This document shows positions 15,065-50,801 of a DNA stretch of 64,000 nucleotides, piece by piece. Every line of letters begins with the position of its first letter. The first letter of the stretch is position 1. The notes under the pieces are model-generated. The model was not told where the DNA came from. It ran no database searches and was given only the letters and a program-made list of their open reading frames with translations. Position numbers and translations under genes: made by a program. This stretch comes from Calothrix sp. MO_167.B12 (GTDB lineage Bacteria; Cyanobacteriota; Cyanobacteriia; Cyanobacteriales; Nostocaceae): NCBI GenBank assembly GCA_030066045.1, contig JASJCJ010000029.1:1-64000 (forward strand), given 5' to 3'.

Positions 15065-16336
15065 CTACGTGCGAGGTTTCTGACGTTTCACCTGCTGAAC
15101 TTTCCTAAAACCTCCACAATTGTGCGTGGTCTTAGAAAGAGGTTCAGCATCCACGTTTATGAGGCTAGTTCCTAACCCCAGTGCATAATTAAGCATTACT
15201 ATAGCTGCCGACACATCTCGGTCAGCAACAAAATTACAAATCTCACAATTATGCACACGCTCGGATAACTCTTTTTTCTTTTTGTGTCCGCAATTAGGAC
15301 AGGTTTGAGATGGGGCAATCTTCAGGGGAACATCAACAAATACCCCATCACATTCACTAAGTTTGTATTTGATCAGTGAAGTTAGATTACCAATTCCAAC
15401 ATCCAATAAAGACCGGTTAAGTCCCGTCTTTTGATGTTTTCTTTTGCTGCCCTTTTTGGCTTTACGAGTCATCTGAGTGATGTTCAACTTCTCGGTAGCT
15501 ACCAGTGAATTACTCTTTATTATCTGTGCAGACACTTTATGTTGCCAATCCTGTCTTTGGTTAGCAACTTTGTTTTGAAGTTTACTTATCTGTTTTCTGG
15601 TTTTTCTCCAATGTTTAGATGCTTTGATTTTCTTTTTGAAATTAGGCGCACGTTTGCGGCGTAATTTCTTAGAAGCCTGCTCTATTTTTTTTTGGGTATT
15701 ACCTAGGAATTTTGGATTATTAATGATCATGCCATCTGAACAAGCAATAGCATGGTAAGTACCAAAATCTAAACCAATAGCACCTGTGCTGGTTTCTCTT
15801 TTTGGTTCGCAATTTACTGTAATTGAGGCATACCATTTACCTTGCTTCCAAATAATTGTACAGGTTGTTGGTGTACCCCAAGTTCTAGCTTTACCCCTCA
15901 TTTGAATTTGCCCTAAATTGGACAGTTCCAAATAACCATTATCCCCTGTTGTGTGTGCCTTCCATCCACTTATCCCTGGGTAAGTCCAACCACGATAATG
16001 TCGCGCTCCCTTGAATTTTGGATATCCACTTAACCCCTTGAAAAATCTTTGAAAGGCATAATCAACACGTTTAACAGTGGACTGTAAAGCTTGTGAACCT
16101 AACTGTTTATATTCAACCCAGCACTCTTTGAATTCTGGCAAACTGTTTTGTTGGTCATAGTAACTAATAGAATTACCAAAACGCTGATATTCTGTCTTTC
16201 TATGGTAAAGACAGGCGTTATATAAATCTTTGTGAAGTCGTCGCCAATAATGTAATTTGACTTCTTGAGATTTAGTTGGATATAAGCGAAAGGTTGTTCT
16301 ACGTGTTACTATCATGGGTGTGATTATATCATTCAC
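15065..16336 (-). CDS. tnpB: RNA-guided endonuclease TnpB / OrfB
   Basis: RuvC-I GLDFGTYHAIACSDG, RuvC-II TEKLNI, zinc finger CPNCGHKKK...CEICNFVADRDVSAA; likely true start at an internal Met (MIVTRRTTFRLYP). Confidence 0.93.
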   Translation of the reverse strand: MNDIITPMIVTRRTTFRLYPTKSQEVKLHYWRRLHKDLYNACLYHRKTEYQRFGNSISYYDQQNSLPEFKECWVEYKQLGSQALQSTVKRVDYAFQRFFKGLSGYPKFKGARHYRGWTYPGISGWKAHTTGDNGYLELSNLGQIQMRGKARTWGTPTTCTIIWKQGKWYASITVNCEPKRETSTGAIGLDFGTYHAIACSDGMIINNPKFLGNTQKKIEQASKKLRRKRAPNFKKKIKASKHWRKTRKQISKLQNKVANQRQDWQHKVSAQIIKSNSLVATEKLNITQMTRKAKKGSKRKHQKTGLNRSLLDVGIGNLTSLIKYKLSECDGVFVDVPLKIAPSQTCPNCGHKKKKELSERVHNCEICNFVADRDVSAAIVMLNYALGLGTSLINVDAEPLSKTTHNCGGFRKVQQVKRQKPRT

Positions 16337-16346
16337 CTAATATCCA

Positions 16347-16760
16347 GTGCAACCCTCACTCAGAAAGAGTTCTCATGCTGTATTCTGTATTCACCTACAT
16401 ATTGTGTTGGGAACCAAGTATCGGCGCAAAGTGATTACTTCTGAAATCCTCACTAGACTGCAAGCAATTTTCACGAATCTCTGTGAACAACGAAAAAGTA
16501 TTTTAATTGAGTTCAACGGCGAGGAAGACCATGTTCACTTGTTGGTCAATCTGTCACCAGACAATCATATTTCTGAATTCGTAAAAGTCCTAAAAGCTTC
16601 GTCAAGCAGACTAATCCGCAAGGAGTTCAAATCACACGTAGACAAATACTACTGTCAGCCTGTTTTTTGGTCTAGTTCATATTTTGTGAATTCTAGTGGT
16701 GGGGTATCCCTCGATGTGTTGAAGAAATACATCAAGCAGCAAAATTCTCCGCCTGGATAA
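16347..16760 (+). CDS. tnpA: IS200/IS605 Y1 HUH transposase TnpA
   Basis: LHIVLGTKYRRKV, HUH motif EEDHVHLLVNL, C-terminal helix KKYIKQQ. Confidence 0.93.
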   Translation: MQPSLRKSSHAVFCIHLHIVLGTKYRRKVITSEILTRLQAIFTNLCEQRKSILIEFNGEEDHVHLLVNLSPDNHISEFVKVLKASSSRLIRKEFKSHVDKYYCQPVFWSSSYFVNSSGGVSLDVLKKYIKQQNSPPG

Positions 16761-41522: not shown

Positions 41523-42794
41523 ATGACACAAACAAATTCCACATCATCTTTATCCTCCAAGGATTGGCAAAGAGCAAGGCGTGCTTTAGCAATTTTGTCT
41601 ACTCTGAGTTATCGTACAGATAAATTTAACTATTATCTACGGGAAATTACTTTAGGTATTAGTGAATTACTTCAACTTGATTGGTCTGTAGTGACATTAT
41701 GCGGTGATAGTTACCAAATCCTAGCTAGTAATATTGAACTAGGAGATGCAGGTAAGCAAGTTTACTCCCTACATGGCAGTTTAACTGGTACTGTAGTGGA
41801 AACAGGTAAAGTTTTAGCAATCACAGACGCTACAAGCTGTAGTCAATATGGTAGTCCGCCCCCAGGCTATCAAGCCTATTTAGGAGTGCCTTTACGTACT
41901 CCCCAGGGGAAAGTAGTAGGAACCATTTGTTGCTTTCAAAAACAAGCACGCCGATTTACTTCAGATGAGATTGACGTTGCCGAATTATTTGCCGAACGGG
42001 CCGCAACAGCAATTGATAACTATCAGCTTTATCAACAACAGTTGGAATTTAATCACATTTTAGAAGCTGAGGTACAGAAAAGAACAGAAGAATTACAAGC
42101 TGCTCAAGCAAAACTAGTAGAGAAAGAACGTTTAGCAGCCATTGGTGAATTTTCTGCTTGTATTATCCACGAAATTCGTAACCCCTTAACTACAATTAAA
42201 ATGGGGTTAAATTATTTTAAAAAATTGGATTTATCAACAGTAGCAAAAGAACGATTATCTTTGGCATTAGAAGAGTCGGAGCGTTTAGAAAGATTGTTAA
42301 AAGAAATCTTACTTTATGCCAAGCCTCAGACATTAAAACTAGAAGAAATTGAACTGAATAATTGGATTGGTCAGATAGTGCGATCGCTGGGATCAATGCC
42401 AGAAGCTACAGACAAATTCATCAAATTTTGCCCAACTACTAATATAGCTACAGTCCAGGCAGATAAAGATAAATTACAACAAATATTAATTAATATAGTA
42501 CGGAATGCATTTGAAGCAACATCCGTAGGCAATACTGTCAGATTATTAGTTAAAAATATTGTTGGGCAAGACCAAATATGTATTCAGATTAATAATAGCG
42601 GGGAACCCATTCCTCCAGAGATTTTACCTCAATTAACTCAGCCTTTTTTCTCAACAAAAACCTCTGGAACTGGATTGGGACTGGCAATCTGTAAAAGGAT
42701 TGTGGAACTTCACGGTGGAGAATTGGAAATTCAATCTAATTTGACTGAAGGCACTACAGTAGTAGTACAATTACCTATGTGTGATCAACAGTAA
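41523..42794 (+). CDS. GAF-domain sensor histidine kinase
   Basis: GAF region; HisKA FSACIIHEIRNPLTTIKMGL; HATPase motifs TSGTGLGLAICKRIVELHGG. Confidence 0.94.
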   Translation: MTQTNSTSSLSSKDWQRARRALAILSTLSYRTDKFNYYLREITLGISELLQLDWSVVTLCGDSYQILASNIELGDAGKQVYSLHGSLTGTVVETGKVLAITDATSCSQYGSPPPGYQAYLGVPLRTPQGKVVGTICCFQKQARRFTSDEIDVAELFAERAATAIDNYQLYQQQLEFNHILEAEVQKRTEELQAAQAKLVEKERLAAIGEFSACIIHEIRNPLTTIKMGLNYFKKLDLSTVAKERLSLALEESERLERLLKEILLYAKPQTLKLEEIELNNWIGQIVRSLGSMPEATDKFIKFCPTTNIATVQADKDKLQQILINIVRNAFEATSVGNTVRLLVKNIVGQDQICIQINNSGEPIPPEILPQLTQPFFSTKTSGTGLGLAICKRIVELHGGELEIQSNLTEGTTVVVQLPMCDQQ

Positions 42795-43072
42795 ACTGTA
42801 ATATCTTCTCCACAATCATCTGCTAAATAGCACAGAGCTTTAAAACGCAGACTGACAACTTCCTCATATAGAGGATTTAGCTTACACATTGGGGGGATGT
42901 GGAATAATTTGCGTCCAAATAGGGTAATATCTCTTTCAAATGGACATTGAGCGGGAATCAGTTTGCACAAAATGTGGGCTAATTCAACATTGTGGACTTC
43001 TAGAGAATTTAACCATTGACGAATGGGGAATAGAAAATCTCTGTGGTGCCGAATGTGGGAAAAGCTAGTCAT
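42785..43072 (-). CDS. Mo-dependent nitrogenase C-terminal domain family protein
   Basis: PIRQWLNSLEVHNVELAHILCKLIPAQCPFERDITLFGRKLFHIPPMCKLNPLYEEVVSLRFKALCYL. Confidence 0.85.
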   Translation of the reverse strand: MTSFSHIRHHRDFLFPIRQWLNSLEVHNVELAHILCKLIPAQCPFERDITLFGRKLFHIPPMCKLNPLYEEVVSLRFKALCYLADDCGEDITVYC

Positions 43073-43327: not shown

Positions 43328-43795
43328 CTAAACTCCTCTGAGAGGAGCATAGCCAAAAGTAGCATTGAATTGTTGACACCAAATCCCTACAGATTTGAAC
43401 TGGTTGAGGTTGATATTCTCTGGGATTGCATAGCGTTGAGTGCCTTTGAAGCTTTTGATAGGAGCTAGGGTAACGTAATCTGTTTTCCGAATATTTAGAG
43501 GTACATTACTTTGACGGTGAAGAATTACTTTAACGTCTGGACCACTACCAGTCCTAAAGCTGCGATCAAACTCAAGGTAACGTTTACCATTAATACTAAC
43601 AATTTTCGCCATTCCTCTAGTAGATTTCTCCTGCTTGACGAAGCTACCGTGAGCGACAACAGACTTATTCGTTCCCTTGACATCAGCTGTTGAATGGCTG
43701 GCAAAAGCTGGAGATGTATTAATTACTGTCGAACCTACACCAGTTAAAACTACAACAGATGCGATTCCTAAGCCAGCCAATTTATAAAGTTTCAT
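43328..43795 (-). CDS. Secreted DM13-domain protein
   Basis: Sec signal from MKLYKLAGLGIASVVVLTG; VKGTNKSVVAHGSFVKQEKSTRGMAKIVSINGKRYLEFDRSFRTGSGPDVKVILHR; ORF starts upstream at 43864. Confidence 0.85.
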   Translation of the reverse strand: MKLYKLAGLGIASVVVLTGVGSTVINTSPAFASHSTADVKGTNKSVVAHGSFVKQEKSTRGMAKIVSINGKRYLEFDRSFRTGSGPDVKVILHRQSNVPLNIRKTDYVTLAPIKSFKGTQRYAIPENINLNQFKSVGIWCQQFNATFGYAPLRGV

Positions 43796-43936
43796 GATTG
43801 TAATAGCTCCTAACAAGTTGTGTGTGCTTGTTCTCTCTTGCTTGATTACTAATATGGCGGACAACTGTGAATCAGCTCTGATAGCTAACTGAAATTTGAT
43901 TAAGAGTTAAATGAGAAAACTGAGAAACAAATAACA

Positions 43937-43969
43937 AGCTCCGCGACTTGTTGGAAAAGTCGCGGAGCT
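43937..43969 (-). terminator. Strong GC-rich hairpin between secreted-protein genes
   Basis: AGCTCCGCGACTT-GTTGGAA-AAGTCGCGGAGCT. Confidence 0.75.
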
Positions 43970-44023
43970 AAGGAATATCTCATATTCACTGTGTAACAGT
44001 CTTAGAAGTTTTATTCAATAGTA

Positions 44024-44572
44024 CTAGCGTACACTGACATCCATCCGATAGTTGAGAGCTCCATCACCACTCGTTTGCTGAGTGTTACTTGTTCCAGGAG
44101 CATTGAATTCCACACTTACATCTGAATCAGCAGGAGTATAACGGGCTGAAATTTCTACTTTGTGCTCTCCCACCGACAGGTAAGGGGATAAATTAATATC
44201 AACTGTATTACTGCGGATTTGTTTAACAACTCTACCATCAATGCGAATTTCCCCAGTCAAATTATTACCTGAAGTTTTGATACTTAGGATATGGGGTTTG
44301 TTTAAACTAGCTGCATTCACGCCGACGGAACTTGTTTGGTAACTAGATGAACTACTAGATTGTTGGTTACTAACAGAGAAACTATTATCCATATCACTAC
44401 TATTATCAGATTGAACGACGGAAGTTTGATTATTTTGACTGTTTTGACTACTTCGACTAGTAACAACAGAAGTTTGGTTATTTTGGCTAGTCTGGACTGA
44501 CTTTTGCCCTACACATGCATTCACGCTAACTATTAAAGCGATGCTACACGCAATAAACAATGAAGTTTTCAT
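44024..44572 (-). CDS. Hypothetical secreted/lipoprotein with S/Q/N-rich low-complexity region
   Basis: Lipobox-like SVNACVGQ; QNSQNNQTSVV repeats. Confidence 0.75.
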   Translation of the reverse strand: MKTSLFIACSIALIVSVNACVGQKSVQTSQNNQTSVVTSRSSQNSQNNQTSVVQSDNSSDMDNSFSVSNQQSSSSSSYQTSSVGVNAASLNKPHILSIKTSGNNLTGEIRIDGRVVKQIRSNTVDINLSPYLSVGEHKVEISARYTPADSDVSVEFNAPGTSNTQQTSGDGALNYRMDVSVR

Positions 44573-45005
44573 GATTCAGATACAATTGATAGATAAATTT
44601 TGTATGCGATCGCATCGGCAGACAACTATAGATACAAAAAATTTTCATTTTGTAAAACTATTTACCTCCCGATAATCACATGGATATATTTTATTAATAG
44701 AGAAACACTCAATTTATTTTCAGTATCATCAAAAAATATTATCTTTATTACTCCCATACTTTACTTACCATTTCAACGATAGCATTTATATAAGATATAT
44801 AAAATTTTATTTGTTAAATTTTACATATTTGCTATTAGTTACTAATAGCTCAATATTAAAAAAACAAGTATCTAAAGATAGATAAATATTTAATTTACTC
44901 AAGTAAATTATCCTCTCCTGATTCAGGAGAGGTTAAGAAAAAGCAATCATAAATCTTTTAGAAGATGCAAATGCACCAAACTCAAAAATCGAAATTAACC
45001 TCTAT

Positions 45006-45629
45006 TTAGCGAGGAAGACATCCCAAATCACCATTTGCTCTGAGTTTATTTGGTGATTCTTGTTTCCCGCCCAGAATATTCCGAGCTACGTCAGTAACAC
45101 CAGAAACAATATTCAATGGATTGAGATTTTGAACAGACATATCTACTCCAACCTTAGCATTGCATAAATGTGTTTTGGGAAGGGAATTAGATTGCTGTTG
45201 AGCTTGAGGAATATTGCCAGTATCGGTATTATTTTGTTCTTGATTAGTAATGCTATTAGTCACGCTATTAACTGCATTACCAACTCCAGGTACAACCTTC
45301 TTATTGTTACGAATAATACCATCAACAACTGCACCAGCTACTCCAGGTACAATATTCTTTTTATTACCAGTTACACCATTGAGAACTGCTCCGGCGACTC
45401 CAGGTAGAATACTCTTTTTCTTACGACGGGTAACTCCATTGACTGCGGCTCCAGGTGCATTTTCTACACCATTATTAGGAGTAGCAGGAGTTTGATTTAC
45501 ATTGGTTTGAGTTTCAGATACTTGACTCTGTTGGTTTTCAGGATTGGGTGCTTCTTGAGCGATCGCAGCAGAGGGAGCGATAGTAATTACCGCAGCTAAT
45601 AAACCAAAAACCTGAATTTTTGTAATCAT
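45006..45629 (-). CDS. Hypothetical secreted protein with PGVAGAV(L/V)(N/D)G repeats
   Basis: Sec signal ..FGLLAAVITIAPSAAIA; three or four ~18-aa repeats; two Cys, one near the C-terminus (GCLPR). Confidence 0.78.
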   Translation of the reverse strand: MITKIQVFGLLAAVITIAPSAAIAQEAPNPENQQSQVSETQTNVNQTPATPNNGVENAPGAAVNGVTRRKKKSILPGVAGAVLNGVTGNKKNIVPGVAGAVVDGIIRNNKKVVPGVGNAVNSVTNSITNQEQNNTDTGNIPQAQQQSNSLPKTHLCNAKVGVDMSVQNLNPLNIVSGVTDVARNILGGKQESPNKLRANGDLGCLPR

Positions 45630-45951
45630 ATTTCTCTACCCCAAAAATTGAAAATTGACTAATGTTGAGTTGATTATTGAATTAAGAATTTGTATATTTG
45701 TCTTTTGGTGATTCATTATGCAGGCATTTATCAACATTAATTGATCTTGGTCTATTGTGAATTGTTAATGTTAGCCTGCATGAATCGTGAGTATAGATAC
45801 AATTCCAGTTATAATAATTCCTGAAAAATATGCATAAAAAAAAGTTTATGGTACCTGTTTCTTGTTGAGATTTCCTTTTATTGTCATTACCAGTGTTTTG
45901 AAAGGCAAATATAGCAACGACTACGGTTAAGTAACTGGGTCAAATTAAATA

Positions 45952-46120
45952 ACCTGAGTTCGAGATAAGCCCAAACCCTCATTACACCGTTGCTTGATTC
46001 TGGGATATGTCAACGTGTTTGCCTCGTTTGAGCTATTCAAGGTTAAATAAACCGGGATTACCCGAACTGAGGTTACGTATATTTCTCGCGTTAATTTTAA
46101 CTCCTAACACCGAACTAAGG
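45952..46120 (+). mobile_element. MITE-like element family A, copy 2 (169 bp)
   Basis: Near-identical to 29403..29571; flanked by TTAAATA direct repeats (45945-45951, 46121-46127). Confidence 0.88.
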
Positions 46121-46338
46121 TTAAATATAAAACCTCCACCCCGCCTGACGTGACTACACCCCTCTCCTTAATAAGATACCAATGGCGAATCAGGGGTATC
46201 ACCCTCTTGGGAGTGGGGGAGCGGGAGAGTGGGGGAGTGGGGGTAGAAAAAACAAGTCCAAATTATGCCAATAATCCCTAGTTTTTAACCTAGTAAGGGG
46301 TCATACCCACTATTCGCCAGCAGCATCCTTAATAAGTT

Positions 46339-46447
46339 CACATCTTGCACCATAAGATTATTGAGAAAATTCGAGTCTGAAACCCTTAGTTTTTCGTAAC
46401 CCACCTATTGCCCACCTTACCCTTATTGAGAAAGTGTAAGATATGTG
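46339..46447 (-). repeat. MITE-like repeat family D copy
   Basis: CACATCTTGCACCATAAGATTATTGAGAAAATTCGAGTCTGAAACCC...CCTTATTGAGAAAGTGTAAGATATGTG. Confidence 0.55.
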
Positions 46448-46510
46448 TAAGGAGAGGGGCTGGGGGTGAGGTTCAGTCTTACATTTAATTCCGCTTACCT
46501 ACTTACTGGT

Positions 46511-46543
46511 TTGACACTCTCCTACCTGGAAGATGGGAGATTC
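46511..46543 (-). repeat. Solo hairpin resembling an IS200/IS605 right end
   Basis: Reverse complement reads GAATCTCCCATCTTCCAGGTAGGAGAGTGTCAA, same layout as the right end at 24656..24686. Confidence 0.45.
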
Positions 46544-46638
46544 TTCAAACTAAAAAAGCTCCTTTTACTAAAAAGAGCTACAAACGTGAAATTCCCCCTA
46601 AATAGGGGGTATCAGTATCATCAGCATTTTTGTAAATT

Positions 46639-47028
46639 TTAGCGAGTGCGAGTGCGACGACTAGTGCTAGGAACTACTGGATTAACCCGAACATCAACTT
46701 TAACGGGTATATTCCGAGTTTTAACAGGAACGCGACGACCACCATCAACATATTGATCGCTTGTACGTTTTTGTCTACAGTTTGCAGACCTACAAACTTG
46801 GCTGGAAGAACTGCGAACGGAACTACCTACACTATTTTCGCAATTGGGACCAAATTCTTGTTGCACGTTATTGGATTGCTGTGCCCGTTTCTTCTCAGTA
46901 ACTGCCACTTGAACGTTTGTATCAACTGCCACACATCCTGCCATTGCAGAAGGAGTGAGTGCAGGTATTAAAAAAGGAGAGATCGCAGAAATAGAAAATA
47001 AACCGAGAGATAGTAATTTGGACTTCAT
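46639..47028 (-). CDS. Hypothetical secreted basic protein
   Basis: Signal MKSKLLSLGLFSISAISPFLIPALTPSAMA; four Cys; Arg/Val-rich C-terminus. Confidence 0.7.
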   Translation of the reverse strand: MKSKLLSLGLFSISAISPFLIPALTPSAMAGCVAVDTNVQVAVTEKKRAQQSNNVQQEFGPNCENSVGSSVRSSSSQVCRSANCRQKRTSDQYVDGGRRVPVKTRNIPVKVDVRVNPVVPSTSRRTRTR

Positions 47029-47058
47029 AGTTACTTATATCCTTGTAAATTTAATGAA

Positions 47059-47460
47059 CTATCGTTGACAATTGCTTGTGCGTATAGAGCTGTAGGAGCG
47101 ATTTCTACCAGAACGATTGACGATTGTGCGTTTATAGGTTGTACCTCTGCCATTGCAACTGACAGTTGGTTTGTTGTAGCGACGGAGGCGATATCTGTTG
47201 TAGCGTCGCCATCTCCAATTTCTCAGACGACTATAAGGAGAACGGCGTAATCGTCTTCGATAATAGCGAGATCTGTATCTAGGAGATCTGGGATAAACGT
47301 ATTTTCCTTGATCAGCTCTTCTAACTTTAATCGTTCCGTTCTTGATGGTAACTCTACTACGACCGTTGTTAACATCAATGTCACCGGCTTTGGCAACCCC
47401 TACAGGTAAGGCTATCAATGCAGAAAGTGCGAGCATAGAAATGATTTGTCTGGCAGGCAT
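47059..47460 (-). CDS. Hypothetical secreted Arg/Tyr-rich protein
   Basis: Signal MPARQIISMLALSALIALPVGVAKA; RYRSRYYRRRLRRSPYSRLRNWRWRRYNRYRLRRYN; two Cys, last at ..NCQR. Confidence 0.72.
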   Translation of the reverse strand: MPARQIISMLALSALIALPVGVAKAGDIDVNNGRSRVTIKNGTIKVRRADQGKYVYPRSPRYRSRYYRRRLRRSPYSRLRNWRWRRYNRYRLRRYNKPTVSCNGRGTTYKRTIVNRSGRNRSYSSIRTSNCQR

Positions 47461-47552
47461 GGCTTTATCCTTTGTTGTTTACTAAAGAACAAATGGTTCT
47501 TTTATTTATTAGGTGGTCGTTCAAAGCCCTGATAAATAATAAGTAGATGGTT

Positions 47553-47885
47553 TTAATAACAACCACGTTTTCTAATGCGTTGACGTTGGTCGCTTAGTTG
47601 TCTAGCACGTTGATCGACGCGGCTATCATTAAGGGCAAAACCATCTTGGTTTATACGTTGGCGAGATAGTTGGGATTGGGAGTCACCAGCACAGCGAGCG
47701 CCCCGTCTTCTTTGACTCTGGGTAGCTTTTTGAGAAGCTCTTTGAGTGACTTTACCATCAATAGCAGTAGCCCGTTGATTAATTTCTTGGTTAACTTCTT
47801 GTTCACCTTGTTGAGCAAAAACTACTGTGGGAGATATAACCAAACTGGCAGTTAATAAACCGAAAGCAACATATTTTTTAACCAT
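47553..47885 (-). CDS. Small secreted two-repeat, two-Cys protein (diverged paralog)
   Basis: Signal MVKKYVAFGLLTASLVISPTVVFA; two Q/R/N-rich repeats ending ..GARC and ..RGCY. Confidence 0.75.
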   Translation of the reverse strand: MVKKYVAFGLLTASLVISPTVVFAQQGEQEVNQEINQRATAIDGKVTQRASQKATQSQRRRGARCAGDSQSQLSRQRINQDGFALNDSRVDQRARQLSDQRQRIRKRGCY

Positions 47886-47999
47886 CTTGAAGTGAGCCTC
47901 ATTAATTTGTGTGTTGTGGAGTTGTAAAGATTGGCGTTGGATTTAAAAGATTCACATTGAAACAGGATTATATTTTCACAGACAACGCCTCAAAATCAA

Positions 48000-48374
48000 T
48001 TAGCGGCACAAAGCTCTGGTACGTATAGTCTGAACTTGTCTGCTAATAGTACCTGTTCTTTGAGTATTAGTAGAACTATTTGCGGCAACACCACTTTGTC
48101 CGGTAGTTTGGGTACTAGCTTGTGACTGAGTTTGCTTACCAGTACGGGAACAACCGTAGCGATAACCACGGCGACCTCGACCAGTCACTGACTTTTGGAT
48201 TTGCCGACTTCTAGTAACAGAATTTTGAACATTAACGCTACCATCGAGCGCTGCACCACTTTGGTCGGTTAATTGGTCATTAACTTGAGTTTGTGTATCA
48301 CCAGCAAATGCTGCTCCGGGAGCAACCATCAAGCTCGCTGCCAATAAACCGAAAGCTAAAGACTTCTTCAACAT
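48000..48374 (-). CDS. Small secreted two-repeat, two-Cys protein (paralog)
   Basis: Start at MLKKSLAFGLLAASLMVAPGAAFA; repeats TQVNDQLTDQSGAALDGSVNVQNS..GC and ASTQTTGQSGVAANSSTNTQRT..CR. Confidence 0.82.
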   Translation of the reverse strand: MLKKSLAFGLLAASLMVAPGAAFAGDTQTQVNDQLTDQSGAALDGSVNVQNSVTRSRQIQKSVTGRGRRGYRYGCSRTGKQTQSQASTQTTGQSGVAANSSTNTQRTGTISRQVQTIRTRALCR

Positions 48375-48467
48375 TTTTATCAACCTCTTTAGTGCGTATT
48401 TTGGTCTGTTGTTAAATTTAGTAACCAGGCGTTGTAAAGCAAATTCTGACAACGCCAATAGTTACAA

Positions 48468-48845
48468 TTAGCGGCAGACCTTAAAGGCATTTTGACGCTG
48501 GCCACTGTTGGTATTGCTGTTTTGAGCATTAATAGAACCATTTTCAGCAACACCACTTTGTCCAGTAGTTTGGGTGCTAGCTTGTGCTTGGTTAATCCGA
48601 CCAGGACGACAACCACGACGGTAGCGACCATAGCGACCATAACGACCACGACCATAGCTGGTGGCATTTTGGTTTTGGCGGCTGTTGGAGCGAGAATTTT
48701 GTACATTTATGCTACCATCAAGCGCTGCACCACTTTGGTCAGTGAGTTGGTCGTTTACTTGAGTTTGGGACTGAGCAAATGCTGCACCGGGAGCTACCAT
48801 TAAGCTTGCTGCTAATAAACCGAAAGCTAAGGATTTCTTCAACAT
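48468..48845 (-). CDS. Small secreted two-repeat, two-Cys protein (paralog)
   Basis: MLKKSLAFGLLAASLMVAPGAAFA...GRGRYGRYGRYRRGCRPG...AFKVCR. Confidence 0.85.
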   Translation of the reverse strand: MLKKSLAFGLLAASLMVAPGAAFAQSQTQVNDQLTDQSGAALDGSINVQNSRSNSRQNQNATSYGRGRYGRYGRYRRGCRPGRINQAQASTQTTGQSGVAENGSINAQNSNTNSGQRQNAFKVCR

Positions 48846-48977
48846 TTTTTAGACCTCGTTAGTGTTTGTGTGTTGTGTTGTTGTGTGTATTTTTAATATC
48901 AATAGGAGGGGGCGTTGTTTCGGAAAAAACTGAAGTGAGAAGAAATCTTTTTCCATGAACAACGCCAATAGTTACAA

Positions 48978-49355
48978 TTAGCGGCAGAACCTAGTAGCAT
49001 TTTGACGCTGGCCACTGTTGGTATTGCTGTTTTGAGCATTAATAGAACCATTTTCAGCAACACCACTTTGTCCAGTAGTTTGGGTGCTAGCTTGTGCTTG
49101 GTTAATGCTTCCAGGACGGCAACCACGACGGTAGCGACCATAGCGACCATAACGACCACGACCATAGCTGGCGGCATTTTGGTTTTGGCGGCTGTTGGAG
49201 CGAGAATTTTGTACATTTATGCTGCCATCAAGCGCTGCACCACTTTGGTCGGTTAGTTGGTCATTAACTTGAGTTTGGGACTGAGCAAATGCTGCACCGG
49301 GAGCTACCATTAAGCTTGCTGCTAATAAACCGAAAGCTAAGGATTTCTTCAACAT
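48978..49355 (-). CDS. Small secreted two-repeat, two-Cys protein (near-identical paralog)
   Basis: As 48468..48845 with a few substitutions; ends ATRFCR. Confidence 0.85.
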   Translation of the reverse strand: MLKKSLAFGLLAASLMVAPGAAFAQSQTQVNDQLTDQSGAALDGSINVQNSRSNSRQNQNAASYGRGRYGRYGRYRRGCRPGSINQAQASTQTTGQSGVAENGSINAQNSNTNSGQRQNATRFCR

Positions 49356-49705: not shown

Positions 49706-50062
49706 GTGAAAAGGAAGGCAAAACCAAGGATCGCTTATCTGCGAGAGAAGGCTGGACTTACCCAATTGGAGTTGTCCCGTCTTGTAGGGGTGACTGAGAG
49801 TACTATCCAAAACTGGGAAAGTGGTAGGACTGGCACAGATCATATAGATAGAATTGTTAGATTTTGCCAAGCTTTAAATTGTCGTGTGGAAGAGCTGATT
49901 GAATATGTGGGTGAATCAAGGGAAGAACCCACTACAGCAAAACCTAGTTCCTTAAGTGATATCCATAATCTGTTAGGCACTGATGAAACTGCTTCCTCTA
50001 GCACTGATAGGAAAGAAGTACTAGGAGAGCAAAATACTCAAAGTCAGTCCAACATATCTTGA
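49706..50062 (+). CDS. XRE-family transcriptional regulator
   Basis: IAYLREKAGLTQLELSRLVGVTESTIQNWESGRTGTDHIDRIVRFCQALNCRVEELIEY. Confidence 0.88.
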   Translation: MKRKAKPRIAYLREKAGLTQLELSRLVGVTESTIQNWESGRTGTDHIDRIVRFCQALNCRVEELIEYVGESREEPTTAKPSSLSDIHNLLGTDETASSSTDRKEVLGEQNTQSQSNIS

Positions 50063-50120: not shown

Positions 50121-50801
50121 TTAAACTCGATCGCTAGATTGTTGCCATAGGCTATCCACAGTCACAAATTCATAGCCTCGTTGGAGTAACTGGGGAACAA
50201 GAAGTTTGGTGGTAGCGGCAACATCCTCACCGCCGCAGTCACCATCATGTAGGACGATAATTGACCCATGTTCTACCAATTCGAGAATTCGTTGCACTAC
50301 AGTATTAACTCCCGGTCTTACCCAATCTTCTGGTACAACGCTCCACATTACTGGCCTATAATCCCATTGCTGAAACAATTTTAAAGTTTGAGGTGTAAAT
50401 AAACCATTGGGAGGTCTGACATCACGCACCCTTTCAGGCGGCAGATGGCAAGCATTATAGATAGCAGCTTGGGTTGCTTCTAGACTGTGTTGAAGTTCCT
50501 TGGGAGACAATAGAGGAAAATTATGGTGGTAATAACCATGTAAACCAAGCCAATGCCCGCGATCGCAAATTTGTTTGACAATTATAGGCGATCGCTCCAC
50601 ACAAACACCCAAACAGAAAAAGTTAGCTGTAATCTGATATTCATCCAAGACCTCTAGAAGCTGAGGAGTATATTGGGGATGGGGTCCATCATCAAAAGAA
50701 AGAGCAATGGTTGGAAAATGGGAGGCACCACCCCATAAACAATTGGGAAAAGTGGGTCTAAGAAGTTTATAAACAATCGGGAATAAAGGATAAAACTGCA
50801 T
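50121..50801 (-). CDS. Polysaccharide deacetylase family protein
   Basis: IALSFDDGPHPQYTPQLLEVL, DRGHWLGLHGYYHHNF, VRPPNGLFTPQTL, IIVLHDGD. Confidence 0.93.
   Translation of the reverse strand: MQFYPLFPIVYKLLRPTFPNCLWGGASHFPTIALSFDDGPHPQYTPQLLEVLDEYQITANFFCLGVCVERSPIIVKQICDRGHWLGLHGYYHHNFPLLSPKELQHSLEATQAAIYNACHLPPERVRDVRPPNGLFTPQTLKLFQQWDYRPVMWSVVPEDWVRPGVNTVVQRILELVEHGSIIVLHDGDCGGEDVAATTKLLVPQLLQRGYEFVTVDSLWQQSSDRV

Follow-up and report, generated by a model that had tools for sequence, protein, structure and literature searches.

A conserved module of small exported repeat proteins in Calothrix sp. MO_167.B12 and related cyanobacteria, with a possible role in a surface fibre or matrix

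Introduction

The closest described counterparts of the locus analysed here are curli, composed of CsgA and CsgB with CsgC, CsgE, CsgF and CsgG (PF07012), and the EbfG proteins of Synechococcus elongatus. The curlin repeat follows the motif X6QXGX2NX10 or N-x-Psi-x-Psi-x-Q (PMC3521004, PMC10192328). EbfG1-4 are encoded in a four-protein operon; three of them form amyloids, and they have a role in the biofilm matrix (PMC9981879). Their secretion relies on a GG motif together with a peptidase transporter (PMC4997328, PMC9981879). EbfG was the only system found in the literature on cyanobacterial curli-like or sheath-protein operons. To our knowledge, little is known of how filamentous cyanobacteria assemble a sheath or matrix from protein.

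The subunits of the module described here, referred to as REP, resemble curli subunits as small exported Q/N/G-rich repeat proteins with predicted strand-turn-strand units and regularly placed glutamines. In both systems, a few subunit genes are clustered with dedicated partners. With EbfG, the module shares its organization as an operon of small secreted cyanobacterial proteins. The conserved operon comprises four to five protein families without a name in the libraries searched and provides concrete genes for study.

Genes of the locus

The window, a 64,000-nucleotide stretch of contig JASJCJ010000029.1, carries nine consecutive ORFs on the minus strand between 43328 and 49355. All nine ORFs listed in the preliminary description were confirmed, with signal-peptide-like N termini as it had stated; export signals were assigned by eye, without a signal-peptide predictor. 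In transcription order, the ORFs were named W1-W9:

48978..49355, minus strand: W1, REP repeat protein with a 24-aa signal peptide (by inspection), two ~35-aa repeats, an Arg/Gly/Tyr linker and two Cys
48468..48845, minus strand: W2, REP repeat protein with 96% identity to W1 and a dN/dS of about 0.18
48000..48374, minus strand: W3, REP repeat protein, start set to ATG 48374
47553..47885, minus strand: W4, final and most divergent REP copy; the W4 type ends the array in several related loci
47059..47460, minus strand: W5, Arg-rich RR protein with two Cys in its C-terminal half
46639..47028, minus strand: W6, C6-family protein with four mature Cys
45006..45629, minus strand: W7, exported, with three repeats of ~24 aa; a lineage-specific, non-core insert
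44024..44572, minus strand: W8, BS protein with a low-complexity N-terminal part and a C-terminal beta-sandwich domain
43328..43795, minus strand: W9, DM13-domain protein (Pfam PF10517, E = 1.1e-30), a neighbour outside the module

W3 starts at the ATG rather than at TTG 48458, and the start of W9 is ATG 43795. W1-W4 align as one family, with 41-96% identity to W1. Two mature Cys, the second of them at the C terminus or close to it, are present in W1-W5 and W7, that is, in the six proteins named in the text of the preliminary description and not in five as its heading had it. The C-terminal ends quoted there were read correctly, with the first two interchanged: W1 ends in ..RFCR and W2 in ..KVCR. 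W8 contains one Cys, where its signal sequence ends, and W9 likewise has one. In all pairs compared, namely those formed with G696, the genome of the nearest relative, and the pair W1-W2, dN/dS was below 1, which indicates that the genes are under constraint; the W3 and W6 pairs carry too few changes for an informative value.

Repeat architecture of the REP family

The two related repeats noted earlier between 47553 and 49355 are an internal two-fold repeat far above chance. Half-versus-half alignment scores were 104, 80 and 58 for W1, W3 and W4, the three proteins covered by this test, whereas shuffled sequences reached at most 52, 53 and 45, respectively. The repeat includes a conserved G turn. 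Mature REP proteins are rich in Q, N, S and G (11% Gly) and have a median GRAVY of -1.0; their median pI is 9.6, and some lineages are acidic, down to pI 4.1. Glutamines form a ladder: 81% of Q-Q spacings of up to 12 residues are even in mature REP versus 50% in shuffled sequences, and the value is 74% when one REP protein per locus is counted. Such even spacing is the pattern expected of a beta strand with its glutamines on one face.

Among 172 REP proteins, 127 have exactly two mature Cys, 44 have none, and one, a shortened copy, has a single Cys; the last Cys lies within 4 residues of the C terminus in 117 of the 127. The two-Cys pattern first described in the window is thus real and not universal. 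Since 44 proteins lack Cys, the two-Cys ending does not define REP. Its defining feature is the glutamine ladder. Counts were even (0 or 2) in 159/160 REP proteins, and 13 loci are wholly devoid of REP Cys. The pair is gained or lost together, which favours a disulfide, and it is inessential to the family. In the arrays L132, L133, L135 and L144-L146, every REP copy lacks both Cys, a pattern that suggests concerted evolution by gene conversion. The REP copies and intergenic regions of L132 are nearly identical.

AlphaFold modelled REP as four strands arranged in two strand-turn-strand units with a pLDDT of 52.7, from a shallow alignment of 10 rows containing sequences of the window and of Calothrix parasitica NIES-267 (L007) only. 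This low-confidence model is a hint at the fold, and no fold match to it was found. In Pfam, NCBIfam and the PDB, no fitting family was found for REP, RR, C6 or BS, in agreement with the initial impression that the repeat proteins belong to no named family. Weak Pfam/NCBIfam matches to REP (spore, FokI, SurA, UL20A, DUF6520) were far below the cut-off, differed between members and were rejected.

Comparison with curli and EbfG

The suggested likeness to curlin repeats did not hold at the level of family membership. The REP repeat is ~35 aa long, mostly occurs twice per subunit and, unlike that of curli, lacks the N-x-Psi-x-Psi-x-Q-x-G-x-x-N spacing. The family listing for 30 REP members at E ≤ 1 did not include PF07012 (Curlin_rpt), which also had no match in the window genome or in 146 genomes of the phylum, with a positive E. 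coli control. The strict curlin motif was found in 0/172 REP proteins, in which QxGxxN is depleted (6 observed vs 29.4 expected from shuffles). Comparison by hhalign with a curlin profile of only two E. coli sequences (CsgA/CsgB) gave a probability below 1% for both REP and the distant REP-like proteins.

In a small sample of 12 genomes, CsgG was present in G000, G371, G375 and G001 and absent from the REP genomes G696, G792 and G726; this lack of co-occurrence led us to reject CsgG-linked export of REP. RR, C6 and BS had no Pfam matches of the CsgE, CsgF or CsgC type, REP members likewise matched neither CsgE nor CsgF, and comparison of BS with E. coli CsgC gave no match. With the family, motif, profile and CsgG tests all failed, REP was rejected as a curlin. 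By analogy, the likeness may bear on how REP works, and not on membership. From EbfG, REP was set apart by leader type: judged by inspection, the N termini are K-rich and hydrophobic with AFA/ALA-type cleavage sites, a Sec-type signal instead of the double-glycine leader.

Partner families and the extent of the module

Profiles of RR, C6 and BS were built from REP neighbours. RR relatives of W5 are strongly basic (median pI 10.7) and have exactly two Cys in 35/35 cases, while C6 relatives of W6 have 2 or 4 Cys, an even number in 54/54. Across REP, RR and C6 relatives, Cys numbers are therefore almost always even, as disulfide pairs would give, and the bonds are putative.

The C-terminal domain of W8 was modelled, likewise from window and L007 sequences only, as a beta-sandwich with a pLDDT of 92.6. 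Its predicted fold class is that of FN3-like and jelly-roll domains, none of which was a significant match; one of them is the CbhA module 3pe9 (Foldseek E about 0.015, TM about 0.5). The Pfam search assigned no sequence family to this domain. Matches of the BS profile to ABCB1 in the PDB contained no stretch that passes and were taken as chance. W8 was also rejected as a lipoprotein: the lipobox VNAC occurs in the window protein only, and aligned relatives lack that Cys.

The nine genes had been treated as one unit. Outside its own genome, only G723 has a clear full-length relative of W7, which is a lineage-specific insert, not a core member. W9 lies beyond a terminator-like hairpin, and none of the other REP loci compared showed its DM13 gene. 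As the DM13 gene is missing from these loci and W7 is rarely found elsewhere, a single unit of all nine genes is not supported; the module is W1-W6 plus W8.

Distribution and gene order

Homologs are present in related genomes. A 30-row profile detected REP in 73/218 genomes (24/56 genera) of the GTDB family to which the strain belongs, usually as tandem arrays; the four-row W1-W4 profile detected it in 14/391 genomes. Assemblies can be interrupted at such arrays, so the true numbers are probably higher: G371, for instance, has BS close to the start of one contig and the XRE-type gene described below close to that of another. One Pirellulales match (L008), a longer, unrelated-looking ORF with a GMGG-rich tail, was taken as chance. 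The window genome has one additional single-repeat REP relative on another contig (C129). This solitary exported protein (L037:6566-6925) combines a single REP-type repeat with a tail that carries two Cys, ICLTPLGRLIPWKCGNR; the adjoining genes encode an exported protein with HEAT repeats and a large one resembling pentapeptide repeats.

Gene order is conserved among relatives: the 39 loci that carry both REP and C6 show the order REP > (RR) > C6 > (BS), 38 of them wholly single-strand, and RR was detected by profile in 29/39. One locus has the cluster twice, and in one, C6 and BS are separated by a second RR. G363 carries two head-to-tail copies of the module on one contig (L042) and a third on another (L043). 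REP and BS occurred together in 60 genomes, REP only in 13, BS only in 10 and neither in 135 (odds ratio 62, p = 5e-30, a statistic that ignores relatedness).

C6 is the module member traced furthest across the phylum, found in 21/386 genomes sampled, other orders included; BS and divergent REP-like genes likewise reach other orders. There, the gene before RR/C6 encodes a short exported Q/N/G-rich protein, and a profile of these REP-like proteins matches REP even when the signal peptide is left out (E = 8e-6, hhalign probability 83%). In 12 loci, a gene downstream encodes an additional exported protein whose tail is likely a coiled coil. This family (L041:17329-17856 and 11 further loci) has an invariant core of NTEN..G and NTLD ... 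QPGR, matches no Pfam family and is absent from the window genome.

Stem-loops and chromosomal surroundings

The intergenic regions contain the following stem-loops:

48911..48966, minus strand: stem-loop after W1, arms GGCGTTGTT / AACAACGCC, without a T run
48428..48456, minus strand: like stem-loop after W2, arms GGCGTTGT / ACAACGCC, read from sequence, the fold being computed for W1 and W3 only
47933..47989, minus strand: like stem-loop after W3, arms GGCGTTG / CAACGCC
46557..46579, minus strand: terminator-like stem-loop with a T run after W6
43937..43969, minus strand: strong terminator-like stem-loop between W8 and W9

The GGCGTTG...CAACGCC stem-loop is thus found 3' of W1, W2 and W3, in each case without a T run, and hairpins occupy the equivalent place after REP copies in several other lineages. 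They may set the REP-to-partner ratio. Upstream of W1, two neighbours recur:

49706..50062, plus strand: XRE-type HTH gene, divergent to W1, the same neighbour in 24 loci
50121..50801, minus strand: polysaccharide deacetylase, the same neighbour in 21 loci

The XRE gene, which sits between the REP array and the deacetylase, was found in 62/73 REP genomes and also in 48 genomes without a REP match. The latter finding rules it out as a dedicated regulator or partner, and it may only mark the chromosomal site. Since it is present without REP, neither the XRE nor the deacetylase neighbour need be a functional partner.

Proposed mechanism and alternative explanations

A secreted beta-repeat module with paired Cys, as first proposed, agrees with the two-fold repeats, even glutamine spacing, even Cys counts, operon order and low-confidence model, and a matrix, fibre or surface role is plausible. 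We give about even chances to the reading that Sec-exported two-arch REP subunits stack, assisted by the partners, into a surface fibre or matrix that resembles curli without being related to it. REP, RR, C6 and BS would pass the inner membrane by Sec; no outer-membrane export route for REP was found. Each REP repeat would fold into a strand-turn-strand arch with glutamines on the same side, and arches would stack within and between subunits into a cell-surface fibre or matrix, like curli. Where present, the paired Cys could clamp a subunit or join neighbours, and the divergent last copy could nucleate or cap. The repetition of the gene, together with the hairpin that follows each copy, would lift REP output over that of the partners. 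The partner roles are guesses: strongly basic RR may bind anionic sheath polysaccharide, and C6 and the BS beta-sandwich may serve as periplasmic chaperone or surface anchor. Somewhat short of an even chance, in our estimate, is the further proposal of a new CsgG-independent, Sec-exported amyloid or beta-arch fibre of cyanobacteria, with two-arch subunits, an optional disulfide clamp and its own chaperone, anchor and cap, spread over several orders. If REP forms fibres, this would be a second, independent origin of curli-like architecture.

Against a fibre stands the strong hydrophilicity of mature REP, which could be disordered. REP would then be secreted, largely disordered proteins that hold sheath water and ions, for example against drying, and form no fibres. 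The GRAVY value, the Gly content and Q/N/S/G-rich composition, the low pLDDT and the many large-genome strains among REP hosts are consistent with this; however, strict even glutamine spacing, the conserved G turn, the two-fold repeat and even Cys counts argue for a fold, and we consider disorder unlikely. Equally improbable in our view is a non-amyloid adhesive or cross-linking coat, in which basic disulfide-stabilised subunits would bind sheath polysaccharide via Arg-rich linkers and REP would act as glue. The basic pI of REP and RR, the adjoining polysaccharide deacetylase and the weak similarity of BS to jelly-roll or sugar-binding-type folds point that way, but certain REP lineages are acidic, and the intervening XRE gene also occurs without REP, so that partnership with the deacetylase is not implied. 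We attach very little probability to REP being secreted cationic antimicrobials with RR, C6 and BS as immunity or export partners. Although REP proteins are small, basic, exported and tandemly duplicated, W1 and W2 are near-identical under low dN/dS and not diversified, no bacteriocin family matched, the module has no obvious immunity gene or processing peptidase, and the acidic lineages do not fit a cationic agent.

Other features of the window

Positions 42785-43072 encode a Mo-dependent nitrogenase C-terminus domain as a stand-alone protein (PF06967, E = 1e-44); its gene adjoins a histidine-kinase-like gene at 41523. A transposase-like pair was recognised by inspection at 15065-16760, consisting of a TnpB-type ORF (15065-16336, minus strand) and an IS200/IS605 TnpA-like ORF (16347-16760, plus strand).
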